Source: Halorubrum distributum JCM 10118 (GTDB taxonomy: Archaea > Halobacteriota > Halobacteria > Halobacteriales > Haloferacaceae). From it: DNA of 52,075 bases. A program made the position numbers and the translations under genes. The stretch lies in contig NZ_AOJN01000056.1 in assembly GCF_000337335.1 (NCBI RefSeq), positions 1-52,075 of the forward strand. Reading direction: 5' to 3'. Below are positions 39,057-51,364 of this stretch, piece after piece; within the stretch, counting starts at the first letter, position 1, and each line of letters begins with the position of its first letter. The notes under the pieces were generated by a model. It saw only the letters and a list, made by a program, of their open reading frames with translations. It did not search any database and was not told the origin of the DNA.

Positions 39057-39877
39057 TCAGAGTGATCGATCTACATTATGAATGAGACAGGCAATGGTGA
39101 GTTCACGGAACTGCTTCCACCACCGCCGTGACCGGACAAACGCACCATACTTTCGCTTGAGTGTTGAGTTCACAGTCTCGGATTGACTCCGTTATCCGTA
39201 GAGATCAGCGTCTAAGCGTGCGTTCCATGCCTTGTGGAGTGATGTGAACTCACGATGCTTAATCAGTGGCCGAACCTCGTGTTGCCGGGCGAGCCGCCTG
39301 ATTTTCTGATCGTCGTAGCCTTTGTCTCCGAGGAGAATATCGATACACTCGGGGTTGCGCTTGATCAACGACGGAGCGATCTGGCTATCGTGTTTTCGAG
39401 TCGTCGTCACGTGTAGATCGAGAATTGCGTTCACCTTCGCATCGACCAGCAACGTCACCTTGAGCTGCTGAATCGTGATCTCGGCCCGTTTTGTGTAGTG
39501 TTTCGAGGCGTGACTGCGGTCGAAAGCTGACGCATCAATTCCAACGACGCCGCTTGTCGGAAGTAGCGACACTGAGAGAGTCAATATAATACGCCATACA
39601 GCCATATCAAGCCGGTTGAACGCCTTACAGAGCGTTGAAGCAGTAGGAAACTCGGTTAGCCCGAGAACACGACGGATGCGTGGCATCTCGATCAGTTCGT
39701 CAAGTAGGCCACGGTAGGTCGTGTTCTTCCGCACTTTGAGACAGAGCAGAACAACGTGCTGCGGGAGTGTATAGCGGTGTTTGGAAACTTCGAGGAGTAT
39801 CGAGAAACTGCTCGTCGGGCCAGATGGATCGCCTTCTCAGTAAACCGGAGAATCTGCGACTTCGGGAGGGCTTTCAT
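39057..39877 (-). pseudogene. IS5-family transposase, broken by a frameshift and a nonsense codon
   Basis: Read leftward from ATG 39877 the protein begins MKALPKSQILRFTEKAIHLA. A one-base loss near 39785-39788, after SRYSSKF, shifts the frame. The correct frame resumes through VVLLCLKVRKNTTYRGLLDE and LPTSGVVGIDASAFDRSHAS to LDADLYG. A TAA at 39192-39194 then replaces what was most likely CAA (Gln). Reading past it gives RSQSETVNSTLKRKYG and a natural TGA at 39057-39059. Two independent lesions make it inactive. The intact version would be about 273 residues with the DDE catalytic set (GIDAS, GDKGYDD and the final Glu in SETVNST). Confidence 0.9.
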
Positions 39878-39929: not shown

Positions 39930-40352
39930 TGCTTTTACTATTCAACCGCTGTAGGTTTCGGTATGAGACCGCCAGCGAGTCTCGGATTGGCGGTCAGATA
40001 TCTCTTCTCGTGGCCAAGAGCGAGCCGTTGAGACCCCCGAAGGGAAATAGGAATCAGCTATGGTAGCGTTTCCAGATGAGTTCTACTGGATTGCAGCGTT
40101 TGCCATTATCGCGGCGCTGGTGAACAGTGCCGTCTCGGTCTGCGACGAGAAGGTTCGAGTTGGGATCGCCGTCGAGCAGTCACTCGGACGATGGGGGACC
40201 CCAGGATCCCAAACAGTATTGGTACCCGCACTATACCCGAACGCTTCGTCGTATCTGTCCCCAACAGTATTGGAAGTACGCTCAACAACCGGGATTGCGT
40301 ATCCCTGCGTGTATGTCGACAATCGCCGTAGGTGTGAAAGGAGGTGCTAGCC
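39930..40352. other. Intergenic region with a possible gene remnant
   Basis: About 420 bases between the IS and the respiratory genes. A short frame from ATG 40060 reads VAFPDEFYWIAAFAIIAALV, like the first membrane helix of a transporter, but becomes compositionally random after about 40 residues. It is probably the truncated N-terminus of a lost gene. The right half holds the first operator pair, and a 15-codon frame (ATG 40313 to TAG 40358-40360) that overlaps the next start by eight bases. Confidence 0.55.
40208..40279 (+). promoter_or_regulatory. Operator pair 1 (CAGTATTGG motifs)
   Basis: Two copies: CCCAAACAGTATTGGTAC at 40208-40225 and CCCAACAGTATTGGAAGTAC at about 40260-40279. Their TATTGG cores (40217 and 40268) are 51 bases apart, about five DNA turns, 85-135 bases before the gene at 40353. 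The same pair precedes the operon at 43989. Confidence 0.7.
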
Positions 40353-40574
40353 GTGAGTAGTACCGACGAGTGGCTTCCCGGTATCCCCGACGCGGGAACG
40401 AACAAGTTAGACGCGATGGCCGATGCGGAGCAGACAAATCCGCGAGAGGAACTCAAAAAGACCGACTACGACACGGAGCTGGGGCTCGCGATGACCGAGG
40501 ACGCACAACGGGTCTCGCACGGTGAATTGTCCAGCGACGAGGCGGCGACTGAGGCCGTGCGAGGTGACGCCTAA
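40353..40574 (+). CDS. Stand-alone 4Fe-4S ferredoxin N-terminal domain
   Basis: 73 residues from GTG 40353. It aligns with the first 75 residues of the iron-sulfur subunit at 43989: LPGIPDAGTNKLDAM versus LPGIPNVGKADLDAM, PREEL in both, LGLAMTEDAQRVSHGELS versus LGVAMAEDAQRVARGELS. It contains no cysteines, so it cannot bind a cluster; it is a duplicate of the non-metal N-terminal extension. GTG 40353 has a strong Shine-Dalgarno ggaggtg at 40340-40346, seven bases upstream. The stop TAA overlaps the next ATG (TAATG). It could compete with or stabilise the reductase complex; that is inference. Confidence 0.85.
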   Translation: MSSTDEWLPGIPDAGTNKLDAMADAEQTNPREELKKTDYDTELGLAMTEDAQRVSHGELSSDEAATEAVRGDA

Positions 40575-41074
40575 TGGATGGTGTCGTCGTTTTTGACGGT
40601 GACGACCCGAACGAGCTTGCGGACGCGCCCACGAGCTTTGTCATCGGCAGCGGCGGTGAACGGCGTGCGGTCGACGCCGCCGCCTGCGCCGACCGGTCGA
40701 CCGTCACCCGCGAGTACACGATCCGCTGTGCGACCGGTGAGCGGACGACCGCCTCCTGGACCGGCGTCCCGGTGACCGACCTGCTGGATATCGTCGACGC
40801 TCCGGCGGAGACGACGCACTTCCGGGTCGAGAGCGAAGACGGCTACGCGATCTGTGTCCCGGTCGCCGACGCACTCGACGGGGTCGTCGCGTTCGAACGC
40901 GACGGCGAACAGCTCCGGGAGACGCGGCCGTACGCGCTGCGGTTCCTGGCCGGCGATATCGACGGCGAGCGACTGGTGAAAGGAATCCACCGGATTGACC
41001 TGCTCAGCCTCCCGGCCGATGCTGATCCGGACCGGTACGAAACAGTGACCCTCGACAACCCCGAGTACGAATGA
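40574..41074 (+). CDS. Small sulfite-oxidase-type molybdopterin-binding protein
   Basis: 166 residues made only of the oxidoreductase molybdopterin-binding fold. The expected molybdenum-ligand Cys is in REYTIRCATGERTTASWTGV, followed by PVTDLLDIVDAP and the substrate-region YAICVPVADAL and LRFLAGDIDGERLVKGIHRI. Full enzymes of this family (sulfite oxidase, YedY) have a second domain and usually a Tat signal; both are missing, so it would be cytosolic. It may be a cofactor-binding accessory protein. ATG 40574 overlaps the previous stop and has gaggtga at 40561-40567. Its stop overlaps mobA (ATGA). Confidence 0.82.
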   Translation: MDGVVVFDGDDPNELADAPTSFVIGSGGERRAVDAAACADRSTVTREYTIRCATGERTTASWTGVPVTDLLDIVDAPAETTHFRVESEDGYAICVPVADALDGVVAFERDGEQLRETRPYALRFLAGDIDGERLVKGIHRIDLLSLPADADPDRYETVTLDNPEYE

Positions 41075-41727
41075 ACGACGAGCACAACCAGGACGACCGC
41101 AATTGCTGGGCCGTGTCGGTCACGCCCATCGTGCTCGCCGGCGGCGGGAGTGAGCGCTTCGGGCCAGAGCCGAAGTCGCTAGCGACGGTCCAAGATCAGC
41201 CGATGATCGCTCGCATCGTCGACGCGGTGCGGGCCGCGACCGGTCGGACGCCGGTCGTCGCCGTCGGCGATCCGGAGAAGCAGTTCGTCGTCGACCCGGT
41301 CCTCTCGCCGCTAGTCCGCTACCGGTACGATGTCGAGTGGGGACGCGGCCCGCTCGCGGGGATCGCAGGGGCGATCGGTGCGGTCGAGACGGATGCCGTG
41401 TTCGTCTGCGGATGCGATATGCCGCAACTCGATCCCAGCGCGGTCGAGTGGCTCGTAGGCGAATACGCAAGCCGACCCGCCGCCGCGATCATCCCGGCGA
41501 ACGACGCCGGACACCACCCCTTGCACGCCGTGTACGACTGTCGGGCGCTGGAACGATACTGTTCACAGCAACCTTCGGACCTCCGCCTGCAGCGGCTCGT
41601 GTCCGAACTCGACGCGACGGTCGTGCAGGACCAGGACGCCCCCGACCGTGTCCCGCTGAACCGTTCGGTCTCGAATACGAACACGCAGGCCGAACTGTGT
41701 GCCGTGCGAACGCGGATCAGCGACTGA
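41071..41727 (+). CDS. mobA: Molybdenum cofactor guanylyltransferase (MobA-like)
   Basis: 218 residues. It joins GMP to molybdopterin, giving the bis-MGD cofactor required by DMSO-reductase-superfamily enzymes such as the one at 46293. The nucleotide-binding motif is IVLAGGGSERFGPEPKSLA near residue 20. Then come VEWGRGPLAGIAGAI and VFVCGCDMPQLD (metal-binding Asp), and HPLHAVYDCRALE late in the protein. It overlaps the previous gene by four bases and ends the first gene group of the island. Its presence fits a locus dedicated to a Mo- or W-enzyme. Confidence 0.9.
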   Translation: MNDEHNQDDRNCWAVSVTPIVLAGGGSERFGPEPKSLATVQDQPMIARIVDAVRAATGRTPVVAVGDPEKQFVVDPVLSPLVRYRYDVEWGRGPLAGIAGAIGAVETDAVFVCGCDMPQLDPSAVEWLVGEYASRPAAAIIPANDAGHHPLHAVYDCRALERYCSQQPSDLRLQRLVSELDATVVQDQDAPDRVPLNRSVSNTNTQAELCAVRTRISD

Positions 41728-41804
41728 CATTATTTCTCATATGACAGTGATGACCCACAACAGCAAACCGGCGAGTATGTACCAGAGTAGCGACGTTCGC
41801 TCCA

Positions 41805-43643
41805 CTAAGTGGCTACTGTTCTGTCGAACAGTGCCTCGAAGAGTTTCTTTTCGGCTGCCCGAAGGTGCTGGGTAAACGTCGTCTGTGAGATATCCATCAT
41901 CGACGCGACTTCCTCTCCGCTGTGTTCACGGGGCCAATCGAAGAACCCTGAAAAATGGGCGGTCCGCGCTGCCTCCCGTTGTCGCTCTGTCAGCGCGGCT
42001 GTCAGCTGTTTTCGGAAGACTGCTTCAGTCTGTATGTCCTGCTCGCGCTCTCGTTGTGCGATCAGCGTCAACCCATCGTAGGTCGTCCGAAGCGCGTTGA
42101 CGACGCTTCGAATATCGTTCGAGCTGGCTACCTGTGCGACCAGTCGTCCGGTGGTTCCAGTAATCGAAAACGACTCGATGCTTGCCCCGTACTGCGCGAA
42201 CGTTGTGACGACCGACCGTTCGTTGATCGACAGCTGGAACAGCGCCTGCTCCTCGTGCGTATAAACGTGCTCTATGGTGTCGATAAAGTCGGCTTCGGCC
42301 GCATACTCGATGACGACCTCCGGATCGGGTTCGGTGACGGTAACGTACTGGACCTGCTCCTCGTCGCCGTCATCGACGACGTGCTCGAGTGTGACCGTAC
42401 AATCGAGCTGTGCTGCCATATTCGCCAACGGCTCGTCGATTCCTGTCAACCGGAATTCTAATTCGGTGACGCTGTTGGAAATGAGCGTCTGCTTGCTCTC
42501 GACAGCGCTGATGGCGTCTGCGATCGTTTGACCGAGTTCGACGAAAACATCCCGCTCGATCAGGTCGAACGCGTTCGGGTTGCTAGTCACTACCCCGAGG
42601 ACGCCATACTCCGCATCCTGATAGGCGAGCGGAACGACGACGCACCGTTTTTTGCCGACTGTCTGCAATCGGTCGTCCTCGACGTCGGTAAACACAGGGT
42701 CCTGTCCCTCTAGTGCCTGCTCGACCGGTGTCGGATCGGTGTTACACATCGCTTCGATATGATTCTCGAGCGATCCGAGGTCGCTGCCGGCCCAAGAGTG
42801 CGGGCTAACTGTGCCGTCGACGAGTCCTCGACTACCGATCCAGGCCACGTCGAAGAGATCCGACGAGGCGAACTGCTCACAGACGGTGGCCTCGATCTCG
42901 TCGCGTGTCGACGCAGCGACGAGTTCGCGGTTGATATCGCGGAGCACTTCGTTTGTATTGTTCAGTACCGTTAAGCGCCCGTTCTGATCCTCGATGCGCA
43001 TTTCGCGTTCCTTTCGTTCGGTGATGTCGCGCTCGATCGCGACGTAGCGATTCACGTCCCCGTCCTCGGTGATCGGGGCGATCGTCGCGTCTATCCACAG
43101 TAGCTCACCTGATTTCCGGCGATTCGTCAGTTCGCCTTCCCAGACCGATCCTGACGTGATTTGGCCCCACAGCTCTGCGTAGAAGTCGTCGCCGTGTTTC
43201 CCGGACTGCCAGAGCCGAGGAGTCTCTCCGATCACCTCCTCTCGGTCGTACCCGGTGACCGACTCGACGGCCGGGTTGGCGTACTCGATAGTCCCGTCGG
43301 AATCGGTGAGAAAGATCGCGTGCCCGGCGTGTTCGATGGCCTTCTGAAAACTCCGGAGGCGCTCGTTTACTGCCCGAAGCTCCGTCTTGAGGGCGTTTTC
43401 TTCGGTGACGTACTCGGAGAGATAGTACACTGTCAACAAAGTCAGCACGCTCACGACGAGGCCGGGAAGCTCTTCGAGCCCGGTGCTCGCCGTTTGTACG
43501 GTGAGCAGTTGCCGAAGCGTCATAAAGGAAAACAGCAGCGTCAGGAAGCCGAACCGGCGGTCACGGGTGCGAGCGAGGAGCAGAATCGAATAGCCGACGC
43601 CGAGGAGCCGCAGTCCGATCGAGAGGGCGATAATCGCGTTCAT
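41805..43643 (-). CDS. Membrane-anchored PAS/GAF/Bat HTH-10 regulator
   Basis: 612 residues from ATG 43643; the frame is open to a TTG at 43715. Three N-terminal membrane helices (NAIIALSIGLRLLGVGYSIL; LTLLFSFMTL; LPGLVVSVLTLLTVYYL) lead to a PAS domain (IFLTDSDGTIEYANPAVESV; ending VAIERDITERK), a GAF domain (ELVAASTRDEIEATVCEQFA), a bacterio-opsin-activator domain and a C-terminal HTH-10 (FFDWPREHSGEEVASMMDIS, then QTTFTQHLRAAEKKLFEAL). This is the architecture of Bat/DmsR-type activators that control anaerobic respiration in haloarchaea. Lying between two gene groups with the same paired motif, it is the likely regulator. The membrane anchor suggests a redox or surface signal. Confidence 0.9.
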   Translation of the reverse strand: MNAIIALSIGLRLLGVGYSILLLARTRDRRFGFLTLLFSFMTLRQLLTVQTASTGLEELPGLVVSVLTLLTVYYLSEYVTEENALKTELRAVNERLRSFQKAIEHAGHAIFLTDSDGTIEYANPAVESVTGYDREEVIGETPRLWQSGKHGDDFYAELWGQITSGSVWEGELTNRRKSGELLWIDATIAPITEDGDVNRYVAIERDITERKEREMRIEDQNGRLTVLNNTNEVLRDINRELVAASTRDEIEATVCEQFASSDLFDVAWIGSRGLVDGTVSPHSWAGSDLGSLENHIEAMCNTDPTPVEQALEGQDPVFTDVEDDRLQTVGKKRCVVVPLAYQDAEYGVLGVVTSNPNAFDLIERDVFVELGQTIADAISAVESKQTLISNSVTELEFRLTGIDEPLANMAAQLDCTVTLEHVVDDGDEEQVQYVTVTEPDPEVVIEYAAEADFIDTIEHVYTHEEQALFQLSINERSVVTTFAQYGASIESFSITGTTGRLVAQVASSNDIRSVVNALRTTYDGLTLIAQREREQDIQTEAVFRKQLTAALTERQREAARTAHFSGFFDWPREHSGEEVASMMDISQTTFTQHLRAAEKKLFEALFDRTVAT

Positions 43644-43807
43644 ACGGTTCGCGTCTGCCTCCGACAGCGATGGGACCCTCGGCCGCGGAGCGTTCGTCCG
43701 CTTCGACTCGACCAATTCATACTCGGAGGTAACTGGTCTCGCCGAATAACCCCTGTGATCGGTGCTTCGCTCGAGACGCGGCCCGGTTTGTCCCCGGCTG
43801 ACCCCGA

Positions 43808-43878
43808 CCCAAACAGTATTGGTACGCTCGATATGGGGTGTCTCTCCGGAGTCGGGCCGACTCAGACTATATTGGTAT
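43808..43878 (+). promoter_or_regulatory. Operator pair 2 (CAGTATTGG motifs)
   Basis: CCCAAACAGTATTGGTACGC at 43808-43827 is identical to the first site of pair 1 over 18 bases. A weaker copy, CAGACTATATTGGTATC, is at 43863-43879. TATTGG cores at 43817 and 43870 are 53 bases apart. The pair sits between the regulator and the reductase operon (ATG 43989) and could serve either. Confidence 0.68.
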
Positions 43879-43914
43879 CACCCTCTCCACGGGCGGCAAC
43901 GTACGAATACGTGT

Positions 43915-43992
43915 ATGAACTCCAAGACTGACCGGCTGACGCAGGAGCAACTGCTCGTCGGCAGGACGACCGGCAACGGGTGGTCGCGATGA
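43915..43992 (+). CDS. Putative 25-residue reading frame before the iron-sulfur subunit
   Basis: ATG 43915 opens MNSKTDRLTQEQLLVGRTTG and ends at TGA 43990-43992, overlapping the subunit's ATG 43989 as ATGA. It lies directly after operator pair 2. It could be a leader frame that couples translation; no homology is recognised. Confidence 0.35.
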   Translation: MNSKTDRLTQEQLLVGRTTGNGWSR

Positions 43993-45020
43993 GCACCGCA
44001 GACGACGACACGCTCCCCGGTATCCCGAACGTCGGGAAGGCCGACCTCGACGCGATGGTCGAGAAGGAGCGACCCGATCCGCGAGAGGAACTCGCAGACG
44101 TCGAGGCGGACACGGATCTCGGCGTCGCGATGGCCGAGGATGCACAGCGCGTCGCACGCGGTGAACTCTCCGGCGACGAGTACTGGGAAAAGTACGACGA
44201 AGCCGCGGCTGCCGAGTTCGGCGAGGCGTATCAGGAGACGCCGAACCCTGCGGTCGACGCCGGCGACCAGACTGTCTCGACGGAGACGGCCGAATCGTTG
44301 AGCTGTGCCGTCGGATCGATGGACACCGTTGCGACGGAGTCGACGCAGGTCGAAGGAGACGGGCCCGACGGTGGGATCGGCGCGGGCGACGAGAAGTGGG
44401 GGATGGTAATCGACCTCCAGAAGTGCGTCGGCTGTGACTCGTGTACGGTCGCGTGTAAGTCCGAAAACCGGACACCGCCCGGCGTTTCCTACAACGTCGT
44501 GATGGAAGAGGAACACGGCGAGTTCCCGAACGTCACCCGGACGAACGTGCCACGACCGTGTATGCAGTGCGATAACCCGCCGTGCGTGCAGGTGTGTCCG
44601 GTCTCGGCGACGTACAAGATGGACGACGGCGTGGTCAACATCGACTACGACCGGTGTATCGGCTGCCGGTACTGCAACATCGCCTGTCCGTACGGGGCGC
44701 GGTACTTCGACTTCGGCGAGAACTACGACGACGAGGTTGACGGAGCCGGCGAACTGACCAGCTCCGAGTACGGGGTCGACCGGGGACCGCGCGAAGAGGG
44801 CAAATCGCCGATCGGCAACATCCGAAAGTGCAGTTTCTGTACGCACCGGCTGGAGCGCGGCGAAGAGCCGGCGTGCGTCGAGACGTGCGTCGGCGACGCC
44901 CGGAACATGGGCGATCTCGAGAACCCCGACAGCGACGTGGCACAGATGGCCGACTCCTCACGCGCGTTCCAACTGAAAGAAGACGAGGGGACCGACCCCA
45001 ACGTCTACTACCTCAAATAA
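43989..45020 (+). CDS. Four-cluster iron-sulfur electron-transfer subunit (DmsB/TtrB-like)
   Basis: 343 residues. The first 125 are an acidic extension whose beginning matches the stand-alone protein at 40353. Four cysteine groups follow: CVGCDSCTVACKSEN, CMQCDNPPCVQVCPVSATY, CIGCRYCNIACPYGARYFD and CSFCTHRLERGEEPACVETC. This is the four [4Fe-4S] pattern of DmsB, TtrB, PsrB and NrfC. It passes electrons from the membrane anchor to the molybdenum subunit. It has no signal peptide, so export must depend on the Tat signal of the partner at 46293. ATG 43989 overlaps a short upstream frame. The next gene starts four bases after the stop. Confidence 0.93.
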   Translation: MSTADDDTLPGIPNVGKADLDAMVEKERPDPREELADVEADTDLGVAMAEDAQRVARGELSGDEYWEKYDEAAAAEFGEAYQETPNPAVDAGDQTVSTETAESLSCAVGSMDTVATESTQVEGDGPDGGIGAGDEKWGMVIDLQKCVGCDSCTVACKSENRTPPGVSYNVVMEEEHGEFPNVTRTNVPRPCMQCDNPPCVQVCPVSATYKMDDGVVNIDYDRCIGCRYCNIACPYGARYFDFGENYDDEVDGAGELTSSEYGVDRGPREEGKSPIGNIRKCSFCTHRLERGEEPACVETCVGDARNMGDLENPDSDVAQMADSSRAFQLKEDEGTDPNVYYLK

Positions 45021-45024
45021 GACA

Positions 45025-46296
45025 ATGGCAACACAGAGTTCACGCTTCGAGTTCGATCCGGGATTCGAAGATGACCGGCTGCGGATCGTCTGGTACGCGA
45101 TCATCGGCGTCCTCGTCGCCGTCGGCGCGTACGCGACGTACCTCCGGCTTACGGGAGGGATGGCGACCACCAACCTCACGAGCATCGTCCCGTGGGGGGC
45201 GTGGGTCGCCTTCTACATCTACTTCGTCGGCCTCTCCGCCGGCGCGTTTCTCGTGAGCACGATGGCCAACGTCTTCGAGGTCGAAGGGATGCACAGGATC
45301 GACCGCGACGCGCTGTTTGCGGCCATCATCAGTATGGCGGTGGCGCTGCTGTTCGTCTGGATCGACCTCGGACGGATGGACCGGATGTACTTCCCGTTCC
45401 TCTGGCGCCAACTGACTTCCGCGCTCTCGTGGGAAGTGCACGCCTACGTGGCCTATATCGGGATTCTGGTCACGGAGCTGTATTTCTCGATGCGGATCGA
45501 CCTCGCGCGGGTCGCGCAGCGCGCCTCGGGGCTTCGACAGACGTTCTACGCGGCGCTCGCGCTCGGCCGGCTGGACACGAGCGAGGGGTCTCAGTCGTTC
45601 GATCAGCGCTGGCTCAAGCGGGCCGGTATCGTCGGGATCCCACTGGCGATCTTCTTGGTCCACGGCGGGACCGGCGTGCTGTTCGCCGTCTCGAAGGCCC
45701 GTCCGTACTGGAACAGCGGGCTGTTTCCGGTGATCTTCGTCATCTCGGCACTGCTCAGCGGGACCGCGCTCGTGATGGTGATCTACGTGCTTCGGACCCG
45801 GCTGTTCGACGGCGACTCGGTCGACCCGGACTTGCTCGACCGCCTCGCACAGCTTTTGATCGGCTTCATTATCGTCGACGCCGCCCTGACCGCCATCGAG
45901 ACGTTCATCGCAATCGCCAGCCTCCACCCCCACGAGATCGAGACCTGGCAGGTCATTATGTACGGCCCGATGTCCTGGTCGTTCTGGTGGTTTATGATCG
46001 GATTCAGCTGGGTGTTCCCGATGGTATTGCTGACCAAGAAGTCCTGGCGGCGCACGCCGTCGGTGATGGTGCTTGCCGGACTGAGCGTCGTCATCGGGAT
46101 CGTCGCGGTTCGGTTCAATATCGTCGTTCCGGCACAGATCATGCCGGTAATGGAGGGGCTCCCCCACGGATCGTACTTCCCGACGCTGGTCGAGTGGGGG
46201 ACGAGCGTCGGGATGATAGGCGTCGGACTGCTGTTGTACACGCTCGGTGCGGAGACGCTGCCGTTGACGCCGCTTACCGGAGGTGACCACGAATGA
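45025..46296 (+). CDS. NrfD/PsrC-type membrane anchor and quinol site
   Basis: 423 residues with eight or nine transmembrane helices. The opening WGAWVAFYIYFVGLSAGAFL and WIDLGRMDRMYFPFLW are NrfD-family traits; FLVHGGTGVLFAVSKARPYW lies mid-protein. The family takes electrons from menaquinol in the membrane and hands them to the iron-sulfur subunit. It is encoded between the two other subunits, and its stop overlaps the catalytic-subunit start (ATGA), so all three are coupled. No haem ligands of the NarI type are evident, so it is haem-free. Confidence 0.92.
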   Translation: MATQSSRFEFDPGFEDDRLRIVWYAIIGVLVAVGAYATYLRLTGGMATTNLTSIVPWGAWVAFYIYFVGLSAGAFLVSTMANVFEVEGMHRIDRDALFAAIISMAVALLFVWIDLGRMDRMYFPFLWRQLTSALSWEVHAYVAYIGILVTELYFSMRIDLARVAQRASGLRQTFYAALALGRLDTSEGSQSFDQRWLKRAGIVGIPLAIFLVHGGTGVLFAVSKARPYWNSGLFPVIFVISALLSGTALVMVIYVLRTRLFDGDSVDPDLLDRLAQLLIGFIIVDAALTAIETFIAIASLHPHEIETWQVIMYGPMSWSFWWFMIGFSWVFPMVLLTKKSWRRTPSVMVLAGLSVVIGIVAVRFNIVVPAQIMPVMEGLPHGSYFPTLVEWGTSVGMIGVGLLLYTLGAETLPLTPLTGGDHE

Positions 46297-49200
46297 GTAC
46301 TGACGATTCAGGCGATGACGGCGCAGGCGTATCGCGTCGTGACTTCGTCAAGGCGGTCGGAAGTATCGGAATCATCGCGGCGGCCAGCAACGCCGCGGTC
46401 GACGTGGACGTCGACGACCTGTGGACGGACGACGAGTTCCACTACGTCGGGGACGACTACGGCGAGTACAGCGCGAGCGACGTGATACACACCACCTGCG
46501 GACAGTGTAACACCTTCTGTCCGATCAAGGTCCAACTCGCGGACGGGAGCGGGACCGGCGAGTACAGCTCGCTTGTCCGGAAGCTCGCCGGAAACCCGTA
46601 CTCGTTCCTCAACACGCAGCCGTTCTCGCAGGTGCCCTACGAGAGCGACCCGGAGGACGTGGCGATGGGCGACATCGAGGGGAGCGGCGACATCGCCACC
46701 GACCGCTGGTCGCTCTCGGGCGGGCGAATCTGTCTGAAGGGCCAGGCGGGCATCCAGACGGCCTTCGACAGCTACCGTGTCCGCCAGCCGATGAAACGGG
46801 TCGGCCCGCGCGGGTCGGGCGAGTGGAAGACCGTCTCGTGGGACCAAGTGATTCGAGACATCGTCGAGGGCGACGACGACCTCGGCCACCCTGGACTCAA
46901 AGACATCTGGGGATACGCCCCACAGGAGGCGGTGATGAGCGATTGGGAGGCCGTCCAGAGCGGCGAGCTGTCCAAGTCGGCGTTCGACGAGAAGTACGCG
47001 GACGACCTCATCGACACCGACCACCCCGATCTGGGGCCGAAGTCCAACCAGATCGTCGATGTCGGCGGGTTCCGCCGAAACTTCATTCGGAACCGGCTCT
47101 GGCACCAGGGGCTGGGGTCGATAAACAGCATCCACCACGCCGGGACCTGCGGCGTTTCGAGCGTGATGGGTAACGTGCGCTCCCACGGCGGCAAAAAGAA
47201 GCGCCAGTACCCCGACATCGAGAACTGCGAGTACCTCATCGCGTGGGGGACCAATCCCATGGTCGCCAACAAGGGCCCGACGTGGCTCGCACCGAAGCTG
47301 ACGAACGCCATCGAGGACGGAATGCGGATGGACGTCGTCGACCCGCGCCTGTCGAAGACGGCCGAAAAGGCCGACACGTGGGTGCCCGTCGAACCCGGCG
47401 CGGACGGGGCGCTCGCGCTCGGGATGGCGCGGTGGATCATCGAGAACGACCGCCACGATCTGACCTACCTCCAGAATCCCTCACGGTCGGCCGCGAGCGA
47501 CGACGACGAACCCACGTGGAGCGACGCGACGCACCTCGTGCTCGTCGACGAGTCGGCGGGACCGAAGGCGCGCGCCACCGACCTCGGACTCGTTTCGGAG
47601 GACGCCGATGCCGCCGACGACTTCGTCGCCGTCGATGCGGCCACAGGCGAACCACGGGCCGCAAGCGAGGTCGACACGGCCGTTCTCGACGTCGACATGA
47701 CCGTCGACGGGATGGCGGTTCGGAGCGTCTGGAGCCAGTACCGCGAGCGGGTCTTCGAGCACACCGTCGAGGAGTACGCCGAGATGGCCGGCGTGCCGGC
47801 CGAGCAGATCGCGGAGATCGCCGACGAGTTCACCAGCCACGGGAAACGCGCAGCGATTATGGCCTACCGCGGGCCGGCGAAGCACACCAACGGCTTCTAC
47901 AACACGCGGGCGATTGCCACCCTCCAGCACCTCATCGGGAACTACGACTGGAAGGGCGGCCAGATCACGCCCTACGCGGGCTACGACACCATGTCCGGCC
48001 GGTACGAACTCGGCTCGGTCCCGGACGGGCACGCGCCGTGGGGGATCCCCCTGCTCCGTGGGGGCGTCAACTACGAAGACACCTCGCTGTTCGACCGCGA
48101 CGACGGCTACCCGGCGAAGCGACCGTGGTTCCCCGTCGCGCCGCCGCAGGCGACCCAGGAGCTCTACGGGAGCGCCGCTGCCGAGTATCCGTACGGTGTC
48201 GAGGCGCTGTTCATCCGGCCGTACTCGAACAACCACGTCATGGCGGTTGCCGGTGGCGACGAGATCCCGGCGATACTCAAAGACACGGAGACGATCCCGC
48301 TGATCGTCGCCTCGGATACGGTCATCGGTGATACGAGCCAGTACGCCGACTACATCCTGCCCGAGCCGACCTACCTCGAACGGTGGGAGAACTTCGGGAC
48401 GTACCCGAACAAGCGGCTAGCCGACGAGAAGATCAGCCAGCCGGCTGTCTCAGTCGTCCCCAACGCGCGTCCGTTCGAGGACGTGCTCATCGAGCTGTGG
48501 TCGGAACTCGATCTCCCCGGCGTCGGTTCGAACGCCATCCCCGACGCGGACGGCGACCTCTGGCCCCTCGAACAGGCCGAGGACTTCTACCTGAAGCTCG
48601 CTGCCAACATCGCGTACGGCCGGGATCCGGTCGCAGACGCGACTGAAGACGAGCTTCGGGTGTTCCGCGAGAGCCACGAGAACGGGCTCGGCGATCAGTT
48701 CGACCTCGAGCGCTGGCGGGCGGCCGTCACAGACGAGGAATGGTGGAAGGTCGTCACGGTGTTGAACCGAGGCGGTCGCTTCGAGGAGCCGACCGAGGGC
48801 TACGATGAGGCGTTCGCCGAGCACGGTCACGGCTACGACTACGCCGAGCGCGCGGACGACTCGAACGCCTACGACGGCGAGCATATGCGGTACAAACTCG
48901 AGTCGCGCGTCGACTTCTACAGCGAAGTCGTCCCGAATGGGAAACACTCCTTCACCGGCGAGCGGTTCGACCCGCTCCCGAGGGTCGACGACGTCGAGCA
49001 CTACGACGGGACCGTCCAGGCCGCGGTGAGCGGCGACGACAACCGGGAGCGCCCGCTCCGGCTGATCAACTGGAAGCCCCGGACGCAGGGGATGCACCGC
49101 ACCCAGAACAGCCCGTGGCTCCGCGAGACGCGCCCGGAGAACCCCGTGTGGATCAACCCCCGCGACGCCGACGAGCGCGGCATCGAGAACGGCGACGACA

Positions 49201-49550
49201 TCGTCCTCGATGCAGGCCGCAAGACCGTCGACGCGGTCGCAATGGTCACGAGCGGAATCCGTCCCGGCGTCGTCGGCGCGATGTGGGGATGGGGCCGAAC
49301 GGGTGGCGGTGCGACGGCCGAGACGATCGACGGCGAAACGCGCCCGGCGGTCGAGGCCGACGGCCACAGCGACTACCAGTTCGACGAGCCGATGACTGAG
49401 GAGGCCGGGTACGCGAAGGGACGCGATGCTGGCTTCGCGATCAATCACGTCCAGCCACTGGATGAAGAGCTCGGCGACACCGGTCTCTCGGACCTTGTTG
49501 GCGGAAGCAACGCACAGTACGACGCCTTCGTCGACGTGGAGCGGCGGTGA
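46293..49550 (+). CDS. Tat-exported molybdopterin oxidoreductase, catalytic subunit (TtrA/DmsA-like)
   Basis: 1085 residues. Twin-arginine signal SRRDFVKAVGSIGIIAAAS at 14-32, so it acts outside the membrane. A [4Fe-4S] site is formed by Cys69, Cys72, Cys76 (TTCGQCNTFCPIKV) and Cys147 (GGRICLKGQ). Cofactor contacts include AWGTNPMVANKGPTWLAP, DVVDPRLSKTAEKADTWVPV, IVASDTVIGDTSQYADYILP and the C-terminal VWINPRDADERGIENGDDIV. HHAGTCGVSS places Cys286 where the metal ligand might be. The length and the CLKGQAG and PMKRVGPRGSGEWKTVSWDQ stretches resemble the tetrathionate/selenate-reductase type more than DMSO reductase (about 800 residues). The electron acceptor is unproven. Confidence 0.9.
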   Translation: MSTDDSGDDGAGVSRRDFVKAVGSIGIIAAASNAAVDVDVDDLWTDDEFHYVGDDYGEYSASDVIHTTCGQCNTFCPIKVQLADGSGTGEYSSLVRKLAGNPYSFLNTQPFSQVPYESDPEDVAMGDIEGSGDIATDRWSLSGGRICLKGQAGIQTAFDSYRVRQPMKRVGPRGSGEWKTVSWDQVIRDIVEGDDDLGHPGLKDIWGYAPQEAVMSDWEAVQSGELSKSAFDEKYADDLIDTDHPDLGPKSNQIVDVGGFRRNFIRNRLWHQGLGSINSIHHAGTCGVSSVMGNVRSHGGKKKRQYPDIENCEYLIAWGTNPMVANKGPTWLAPKLTNAIEDGMRMDVVDPRLSKTAEKADTWVPVEPGADGALALGMARWIIENDRHDLTYLQNPSRSAASDDDEPTWSDATHLVLVDESAGPKARATDLGLVSEDADAADDFVAVDAATGEPRAASEVDTAVLDVDMTVDGMAVRSVWSQYRERVFEHTVEEYAEMAGVPAEQIAEIADEFTSHGKRAAIMAYRGPAKHTNGFYNTRAIATLQHLIGNYDWKGGQITPYAGYDTMSGRYELGSVPDGHAPWGIPLLRGGVNYEDTSLFDRDDGYPAKRPWFPVAPPQATQELYGSAAAEYPYGVEALFIRPYSNNHVMAVAGGDEIPAILKDTETIPLIVASDTVIGDTSQYADYILPEPTYLERWENFGTYPNKRLADEKISQPAVSVVPNARPFEDVLIELWSELDLPGVGSNAIPDADGDLWPLEQAEDFYLKLAANIAYGRDPVADATEDELRVFRESHENGLGDQFDLERWRAAVTDEEWWKVVTVLNRGGRFEEPTEGYDEAFAEHGHGYDYAERADDSNAYDGEHMRYKLESRVDFYSEVVPNGKHSFTGERFDPLPRVDDVEHYDGTVQAAVSGDDNRERPLRLINWKPRTQGMHRTQNSPWLRETRPENPVWINPRDADERGIENGDDIVLDAGRKTVDAVAMVTSGIRPGVVGAMWGWGRTGGGATAETIDGETRPAVEADGHSDYQFDEPMTEEAGYAKGRDAGFAINHVQPLDEELGDTGLSDLVGGSNAQYDAFVDVERR

Positions 49551-49556: not shown

Positions 49557-50273
49557 ATGCCCACACACACGGCTGACGGCCGCGACGAGGCGACAATGGC
49601 GACGGCCCGCGCCCGGCTCTACGGGCTGTTGGCCGCAACCTTCGACGGCGAGGCCGAGACGATCGCGGCCGCACTCGATCGCGGGAGCTTCGCGGCCGTT
49701 GCCGAAGTGTTCCCGATCGACATCGAGACGGCAAATCTGCGCGGCGACGACCACGACGCCGACTCGCTGGGCGTCGGGTACGACAACCTGTTCGTCGTGC
49801 CGGGAACCCACTACGTCCCGCCATTCGCGTCCGCTCATGCGACCGATCCGAGCGAGGCGTTCGAGTCGGACTCCAGGTATCACACCGCCGGGGAGGCCGG
49901 CGAATTCCTCGGCGATCCGGCCGCCGACATGGCGCAGCTGTACGCCGCCGCCGAGTTCTCGCCCGAGCGTGGGGACAGCATCCCCGACCACGCCGCCGCC
50001 TGCTTCGAGTTTATGCGCGCGCTCTGCGAGCGAGAGGCGGTGCTCCTCGAAGACGACGGATCTGAAGCGAACCTCGACGCAGTCCGCGAGCTTCAGGCCC
50101 GGACGCTCTCCCGTCTTGGCTGGATCGACCGGTTCGAAGAGGCCGTTGCGAGCAGCGACACGGTCGAAGGCGTTTTCGCCGCAATCGCTCGTCTCGCGCG
50201 GACGTTCACCGCATGGGACGCGCAAGAAGTCGTACAGGCCGAACGGCAGCCGTCCGAAACCACACCTCCGTAA
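49557..50273 (+). CDS. TorD/DmsD-family assembly chaperone
   Basis: 238 residues, all-helical. Landmarks of the TorD family are ARARLYGLLAATF near the start, YDNLFVVPGTHYVPPFASAH in the middle, and HAAACFEFMRALCEREAVLL, followed by ELQARTLSRLGWIDRFEEAV. These chaperones bind the Tat signal peptide of a molybdoenzyme and hold export until the cofactor is inserted. Position directly after the catalytic subunit makes that its client. The family's Y-x-x-L-F-x-x-P pattern is intact. Confidence 0.9.
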   Translation: MPTHTADGRDEATMATARARLYGLLAATFDGEAETIAAALDRGSFAAVAEVFPIDIETANLRGDDHDADSLGVGYDNLFVVPGTHYVPPFASAHATDPSEAFESDSRYHTAGEAGEFLGDPAADMAQLYAAAEFSPERGDSIPDHAAACFEFMRALCEREAVLLEDDGSEANLDAVRELQARTLSRLGWIDRFEEAVASSDTVEGVFAAIARLARTFTAWDAQEVVQAERQPSETTPP

Positions 50274-50284
50274 CCACTCGACCG

Positions 50285-51364
50285 ATGACAACCACAAACA
50301 TCTCAGACGCAGACCTTCGTGATCGCCTCCGCGCCGTCGACGACCCGGCGCTCGATACCGACATCGTCACCGCCGGACTCGTCACCGATATTTCCGTCGA
50401 CGGCGGGACCGCGACCGTCGAGCTCGCACTCGGCGCGCCGCATGCCCCTGACGAGGCCGCCATCGCGGAGCGCGTCCGTGAGGTCGCCGACGATGCGGGG
50501 ATCGATGTCGAGCTCTCGGCGAACGTACCGTTGTTCGATGCTGCCGAATCGTCGGTTCTGCCTGGCGTCAAAAACGTGATCGCCGTCGCCTCCGGAAAGG
50601 GGGGTGTCGGGAAAAGCACCGTCGCCGTCAACCTCGCTGTTGGCCTCGCCGACCGCGGGGCGAACGTTGGACTGTTCGACGCCGACGTGTATGGCCCGAA
50701 CGTCCCACAGATGCTCGGCGCCGACACCGATCCCGACGTGACGACCATCGACGGCGAGGAGCGGATCGAGCCGCCGACCGCCCACGGGTTGAAACTGATG
50801 AGCGTCGGGCTGATGATCGAAGACGACGATCCGGTGGTCTGGCGCGGCCCGGTCGCACAGAACACGCTCACTGACCTGTTTGCCGATGTTTCGTGGGGAC
50901 GGCTGGACTACCTCGTCGTGGATCTCCCGCCGGGGACCGGTGACGTCCAGCTGACTGTGCTGCAGCACTTACCTGTCACAGGGACTGTCGTCGTCACGAC
51001 ACCACAGTCTGTCGCCGTAGACGATACCCGGAGAGGCGTCGAGATGTTCGGCGAGTACCAGACTAACGTGTTGGGTGTCGTCGAGAACATGAGTGGCTTC
51101 GTCTGCCCCAGTTGCGGAGACGCTCACGAGATTTTCGGTGAAGACGGTGGCCGATCGCTGGCCGACGCAGTCGATGTCCCGTACCTCGGAGCGCTTCCGC
51201 TGGATCCGGCGATCCGTGTGGGCGCCGACGCCGGCGAGCCGATCGTCCGTCAGGACGGTGCGAAGACCGCGGAAGCATTCCAAGACCTAGCGGGGACGGT
51301 TGCGAACAAAGTTGGCGTGCTGCGACGCCATTACCACCAGACTGCAACTGACGGTGGTGAATAA
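50285..51364 (+). CDS. Mrp/ApbC-type iron-sulfur carrier ATPase
   Basis: 359 residues. A MIP18-like N-terminal domain (LRDRLRAVDDPALDTDIVTA) precedes a P-loop ATPase with IAVASGKGGVGKSTVAVNLA, DADVYGPNVPQMLG and YLVVDLPPGTGDVQLTVLQH. The CxxC pair needed to hold a transferable [4Fe-4S] cluster is in GFVCPSCGDAHEIFGEDGG. It loads iron-sulfur clusters into target proteins. ATG 50285 is chosen because LRDRL begins the conserved domain; the open frame extends to 50213 inside the TorD gene. Here it probably serves the cluster-rich reductase, although such proteins also have general roles. Confidence 0.92.
   Translation: MTTTNISDADLRDRLRAVDDPALDTDIVTAGLVTDISVDGGTATVELALGAPHAPDEAAIAERVREVADDAGIDVELSANVPLFDAAESSVLPGVKNVIAVASGKGGVGKSTVAVNLAVGLADRGANVGLFDADVYGPNVPQMLGADTDPDVTTIDGEERIEPPTAHGLKLMSVGLMIEDDDPVVWRGPVAQNTLTDLFADVSWGRLDYLVVDLPPGTGDVQLTVLQHLPVTGTVVVTTPQSVAVDDTRRGVEMFGEYQTNVLGVVENMSGFVCPSCGDAHEIFGEDGGRSLADAVDVPYLGALPLDPAIRVGADAGEPIVRQDGAKTAEAFQDLAGTVANKVGVLRRHYHQTATDGGE

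Follow-up and report, generated by a model that had tools for sequence, protein, structure and literature searches.

The window analysed here, the whole stretch of 52,075 nt from Halorubrum distributum JCM 10118 (NZ_AOJN01000056.1, forward strand), carries a respiratory operon on its plus strand. Domain and family profile matches identified its products as an Fe-S subunit of a molybdoenzyme, TtrB/DsrO-like and with an N-terminal Ferredoxin_N domain (43989–45020), an NrfD-type membrane subunit (45025–46296), a molybdopterin catalytic subunit whose closest family is TtrA (46293–49550), a TorD/NarJ-type chaperone (49557–50273) and an ApbC/Mrp-type Fe-S carrier (50213–51364). TtrA was the best family for the catalytic subunit with 408 bits, which is below the equivalog cut-off of 1750; the best reading of these sequences is that the operon encodes a Ttr-family molybdoenzyme. 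A haloarchaeal Ttr branch has been described, and the Ttr-family reductase HTSR_1522 of Halodesulfurarchaeum was detected in thiosulfate-grown cells only (PMC5437934). Since one of the genomes compared, G007 (likely Halodesulfurarchaeum HSR6), contains both the operon and the paired sites described below, the reductase encoded here is probably the orthologue of HTSR_1522.

On the minus strand lies the gene of an HTH-10 regulator (41805–43643, most likely starting at the ATG at 43643). The protein combines sensory PAS and GAF domains (PAS_9, 74.7 bits; GAF_2, 45.7 bits) with a BAT domain (PF15915; 137.9 bits, cut-off 25.8) and an HTH_10 domain (PF04967; 68.3 bits, cut-off 23.1), the BAT domain being located between GAF and HTH_10. 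Up to three hydrophobic, membrane-like segments are predicted at its N-terminus, a pattern that recurs in nearly all orthologues of the regulator, albeit with varying segment scores; such a predicted membrane anchor is unusual for a Bat-type regulator. The original prediction had placed a Bat/DmsR-like HTH-10 regulator between the two site pairs. Its position was correct and so was the likeness to Bat, given the PAS-GAF-BAT-HTH_10 layout, but the likeness to DmsR is loose: DmsR_N (PF24277) scored 19.7 bits against a cut-off of 27, and the regulator has the predicted membrane anchor. In Halolamina rubra (L042), the regulator aligns as two overlapping pieces in different frames, which suggests a frameshift or an assembly error.

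A second gene group is found on the plus strand. It begins with FdN, a 73-amino-acid stand-alone Ferredoxin_N protein and truncated paralogue of the Fe-S subunit, to whose N-terminus it corresponds (40353–40574), and continues with OxMo, a small protein with an oxidoreductase molybdopterin-binding domain (PF00174; 40574–41074), and a MobA-like molybdenum cofactor guanylyltransferase recognized by domain and family profile matches (41071–41727). Stand-alone Ferredoxin_N proteins of the FdN type also occur in two Halolamina genomes and at a remnant locus, L243. A transposase fragment (DDE_Tnp_1; 39192–39734, minus strand) sits directly left of the FdN promoter and gives a hint of island acquisition.

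Both gene groups are preceded by a pair of 18-bp sites. In front of FdN, the distal site CCCAAACAGTATTGGTAC (40208–40225) is followed at +51 bp by the proximal site CCCCAACAGTATTGGAAG (40259–40276), which in turn lies 54 bp before the ATG of a leader ORF at 40313. In front of the respiratory operon, the same distal site CCCAAACAGTATTGGTAC (43808–43825) is followed at +53 bp by the proximal site CTCAGACTATATTGGTAT (43861–43878), with the leader ORF ATG again 54 bp further on; all four sites are read on the plus strand. An identical 18-mer at 40208 and 43808, each with a less exact copy 51–53 bases downstream, was precisely what had been noted at first. Exact CCCAAACAGTATTGGTAC occurred at these two places only in the window, the sole extra match with up to three mismatches was that at 40259–40276, and the search returned no match in 100 dinucleotide shuffles of the window. 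With a position weight matrix (PWM) built from the sites of all loci compared, the four sites scored 31.1, 31.1, 24.9 and 21.5 bits, as against 12.7 bits for the next-best site in the window and 3–13 bits for the best site in each of 20 Markov shuffles. The original proposal of paired operators before both gene groups, linked to the HTH-10 regulator, is supported. Because this matrix was derived from the same site family, the independent test is the comparative genome scan described below. Across the host genome, the pair pattern was present at these two promoters and nowhere else, while the bare core CAGTATTGG had 12 copies, three of them inside the window. The information-rich core over all loci reads C-A/C-A-A-C-A-G-T-A-T-T/C-G-G. 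It is semi-palindromic: a 6-bp centre separates the outer half-sites, CCAA and TTGG, and the right half is the better preserved.

Of 292 genomes from the class, 32 carry the catalytic subunit in addition to the host, and all 32 loci were compared. The distance from site to site was 42, 51, 52 or 53 bp and took no other value at any locus, which at 10.5 bp per turn corresponds to four (42 bp) and five (51–53 bp) helical turns. One intergenic region (L055, in genome G148) contained three sites, spaced by 42 and 42 bp. In the regulator tree, well supported branches forced three separate changes to account for the four-turn class; as the loci are related, it is these events, three at a minimum, and not the 31 loci, that count as independent. 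Spacing shifted by a whole turn and never to an intermediate value, as expected for binding to the same face of the DNA. The two spacing classes were exchanged at least three times independently, which strengthens the original prediction of sites on one DNA face.

In every locus, the distance from the proximal site to the leader ATG was 53–55 bp. The leader ORF of the respiratory operon (43915–43992, plus strand) encodes 25 amino acids and its TGA overlaps the ATG of the Fe-S gene; it was kept in 31 of 31 relatives, in lengths from 13 to 25 amino acids, and in all of them the stop codon overlapped the Fe-S start despite nine different lengths. A leader ORF of 15 amino acids (40313–40360, plus strand) overlaps the FdN start codon, and one of 26 amino acids (43640–43720, minus strand; similar in more than 20 loci) has a stop codon that overlaps the start of the regulator gene (ATGA). 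In Haloferax, the translation of genes that overlap as ATGA is coupled (PMC6728339), and 72% of transcripts are leaderless, such starts being usual in haloarchaea (PMC4983044). By their arrangement, the leader ORFs before the Fe-S and FdN genes look as though a leaderless leader peptide were translationally coupled to the gene that follows.

On the assumption that transcripts start at the leader ATGs, the two divergent promoters differ markedly. The regulator side has a TATA-like TTAT (43746–43749, minus strand) at −29 to −26 of its leader ATG, and these positions were 100% A/T in the 16 loci profiled there; the correct placement of this element, for which the haloarchaeal consensus is TTWT (PMC4983044), supports the assumed start site. 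On the operon side, no TATA element was found at −28 to −23 of the leader ATG in the loci profiled, where the bases are G/C instead. With a TATA element on one side and G/C on the other, the promoter of the enzyme genes appears to lack a TATA box and to depend on an activator. The operon is probably transcribed from at or near its leader ATG, and the sites would serve activation rather than repression. In most loci, however, a TTAT that fits the same A/T-rich consensus lies just past the distal site, at +23 to +26. Were this element a second core promoter, belonging to the distal site, transcription would start at a point covered by the proximal site, which could then act as a repressing site when bound by the regulator, amounting to a dual or autoregulatory control. 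We regard such an arrangement as unlikely. It would not account for the nearly invariant distance between proximal site and leader ATG, nor for a WW-like step at −13/−12 of that ATG; the genomes of family f4 do without the TTAT; and the known HTH-10 relatives are activators, DmsR of the dms operon (PMC1447603, PMC1971269) and Bat as the inducer of bop (PMC2253796).

A link between the sites and the neighbouring regulator emerges from the comparison of loci. The regulator gene was divergent from, and adjoined, the Fe-S gene in 31 of 32 orthologous operons, and all 31 regulator-bearing loci, which span several families, had the paired sites: 28 were recognized by PWM, and three from a single family (L067–L069) had more diverged cores at a spacing of 52 bp. 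At the one operon that has no adjoining regulator (L070), PWM search found no site, and the genome contained no full-length regulator orthologue, its best candidate being 29% identical over the full length. The same paired sites in 31 regulator-keeping relatives strongly suggest a conserved on-switch that would be run by the regulator. A loose pair pattern (MAASAGTATYGG-N39-49-TATYGG) gave 25 matches in 21 of the 292 genomes and none with the reversed pattern as control. Twenty-three of these were Fe-S or FdN promoters and one was an FdN promoter remnant in G042; the remaining match (G268, C3:48546) lay close to an unrelated regulator gene; its second site was poor, and we discounted it as a chance hit. 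Frequent random occurrence of the pair, which would have spoken against the original proposal, was thus not seen, 24 of the 25 matches falling at the operon, the FdN paralogue or its remnant. The pair pattern likewise yielded no regulon beyond the operon in the 292 genomes. A scan of all prokaryote genome contigs returned 105 matches, the majority of which come from other bacteria, as chance alone would lead one to expect.

Could the sites serve another factor, be it a different HTH_10 protein or an unrelated one, with the adjoining regulator being incidental? The host genome has 19 HTH_10 domains to choose from. Moreover, in G042, a third genome of the genus Halolamina, the FdN promoter persists with both of its sites and is followed by FdN and then by a gene that has decayed to a fragment, although the genome has no orthologue of the regulator and none of the operon. 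When covariation was examined across loci, changes in the recognition helix did not clearly track changes in the site. We nevertheless hold this to be quite improbable: regulator and sites occur together in every one of the 31 loci and are both missing at L070, and the sites are essentially confined to the operon and its paralogue, unlike those of a global factor. The neighbouring regulator is the more probable binding protein, and dimers would be its presumed bound form.

The two promoters of the window are themselves related, which the original prediction had not mentioned. The FdN and Fe-S promoters align through both sites and on into the coding sequence, and by this alignment they are diverged paralogues, which weakens any argument from two independent occurrences of the 18-mer. 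Outside the sites, their identity has fallen to approximately 45–53% (17/38 positions between the sites and 19/36 in the spacer), so that an unchanged 18-mer points to selection and not to recent copying. That the identical 18-mers are a functionless trace of recent duplication, as the homology of both promoters and of the starts of the downstream genes might imply, has next to no probability given this divergence of the flanking paralogous DNA, and is refuted by the orthologous promoters, which keep the sites while the catalytic subunits are just 63–75% identical. Among the loci compared, an FdN-type promoter with the full gene group was present in the host genome and two Halolamina genomes only.

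Taken together, the sites are probably activator operators of the neighbouring Bat-type HTH-10 regulator and drive the Ttr-family molybdoenzyme operon. In the mechanism that we propose, the regulator would bind two semi-palindromic sites CCAAACAGTATTGGTA (three in one relative) on one face of the DNA, four or five helical turns apart and probably in a cooperative manner. The bound regulator would then activate a TATA-less promoter whose transcript may start at or near the leader ORF, 53–55 bp past the proximal site, and so switch on the genes of the Fe-S, NrfD and catalytic subunits, the chaperone and the ApbC protein. In the host and the two Halolamina genomes, the duplicated promoter would add FdN-OxMo-MobA as a further target. 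The TATA promoter of the regulator gene itself would allow the regulator to be made before induction, the signal for which may be low oxygen or a sulfur oxyanion. More tentatively, a membrane-anchored Bat-type HTH-10 protein on two or three helically phased sites could stand in for the TATA box where the promoter has none. A single membrane protein would thereby connect the respiratory state at the membrane with the transcription of genes for a sulfur-compound reductase, and both divergent genes would be translated via conserved leader peptides; as a whole, we put this fuller scheme forward as a possibility that is somewhat less than even.

Haloarchaea have many HTH-10 regulators, few of which, to our knowledge, have a defined DNA site. 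The present locus offers a sharply defined and highly specific candidate operator, which in several families goes with a single regulator and a single operon. Naturally occurring variants with four turns, five turns or three sites allow a direct test of the spacing rule, and an apparently TATA-less, activator-dependent promoter is set beside a TATA-driven one. The locus also offers a way into the regulation of a sulfur-type anaerobic respiration that has received little study.

How does this arrangement relate to known systems? CadC/ToxR-type activators bind paired sites. They are also membrane-anchored one-component activators (PMC5430869), as is predicted for the present regulator, but they are bacterial proteins with a winged-helix domain and an extracytoplasmic sensor, and the resemblance is a functional analogy without homology. 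Closer by its setting is the denitrification motif associated with NarO, CGAAYATDKTYG, which is semi-palindromic, lies upstream of anaerobic respiration genes and is possibly bound by HTH-10 proteins (PMC10062603, PMC11218638). That motif consists of single sites with the half-site CGAA and a 4-bp centre, whereas the sites described here are phased pairs of CCAA...TTGG with a 6-bp centre; when the motif (PMC11218638) was compared with the conserved core CCAAACAGTATTGG, no CGAA/TTCG half-sites were found in the latter. DmsR of Halobacterium and Haloferax is, like the present regulator, an HTH-10 protein encoded beside a molybdoenzyme operon, and this activator is required for anaerobic induction (PMC1447603, PMC1971269). 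DmsR has neither PAS nor GAF domain (PMC11218638), both of which are present here. In addition, dmsR is located within the dms operon and the dms enzyme is Nar-like, whereas the present regulator gene is divergent and the enzyme Ttr-like.

At the bop promoter, a regulatory site is located upstream of a weak core promoter, an organization to which the present promoter can be likened. The bop-type upstream activator element has the consensus ACC...TTnG; a loose match to this element had been proposed for the sites but finds no support in the conserved core, of which 'ACC' is no part. Bat of Halobacterium differs further in its target, and no core sequence common to both systems was shown; the paired and helically phased site and the predicted membrane anchor set the system described here apart from it. 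What the two systems share is the regulator itself, composed of PAS, GAF, BAT and HTH_10 domains, and the association with anaerobic induction (PMC2253796, PMC1447603).
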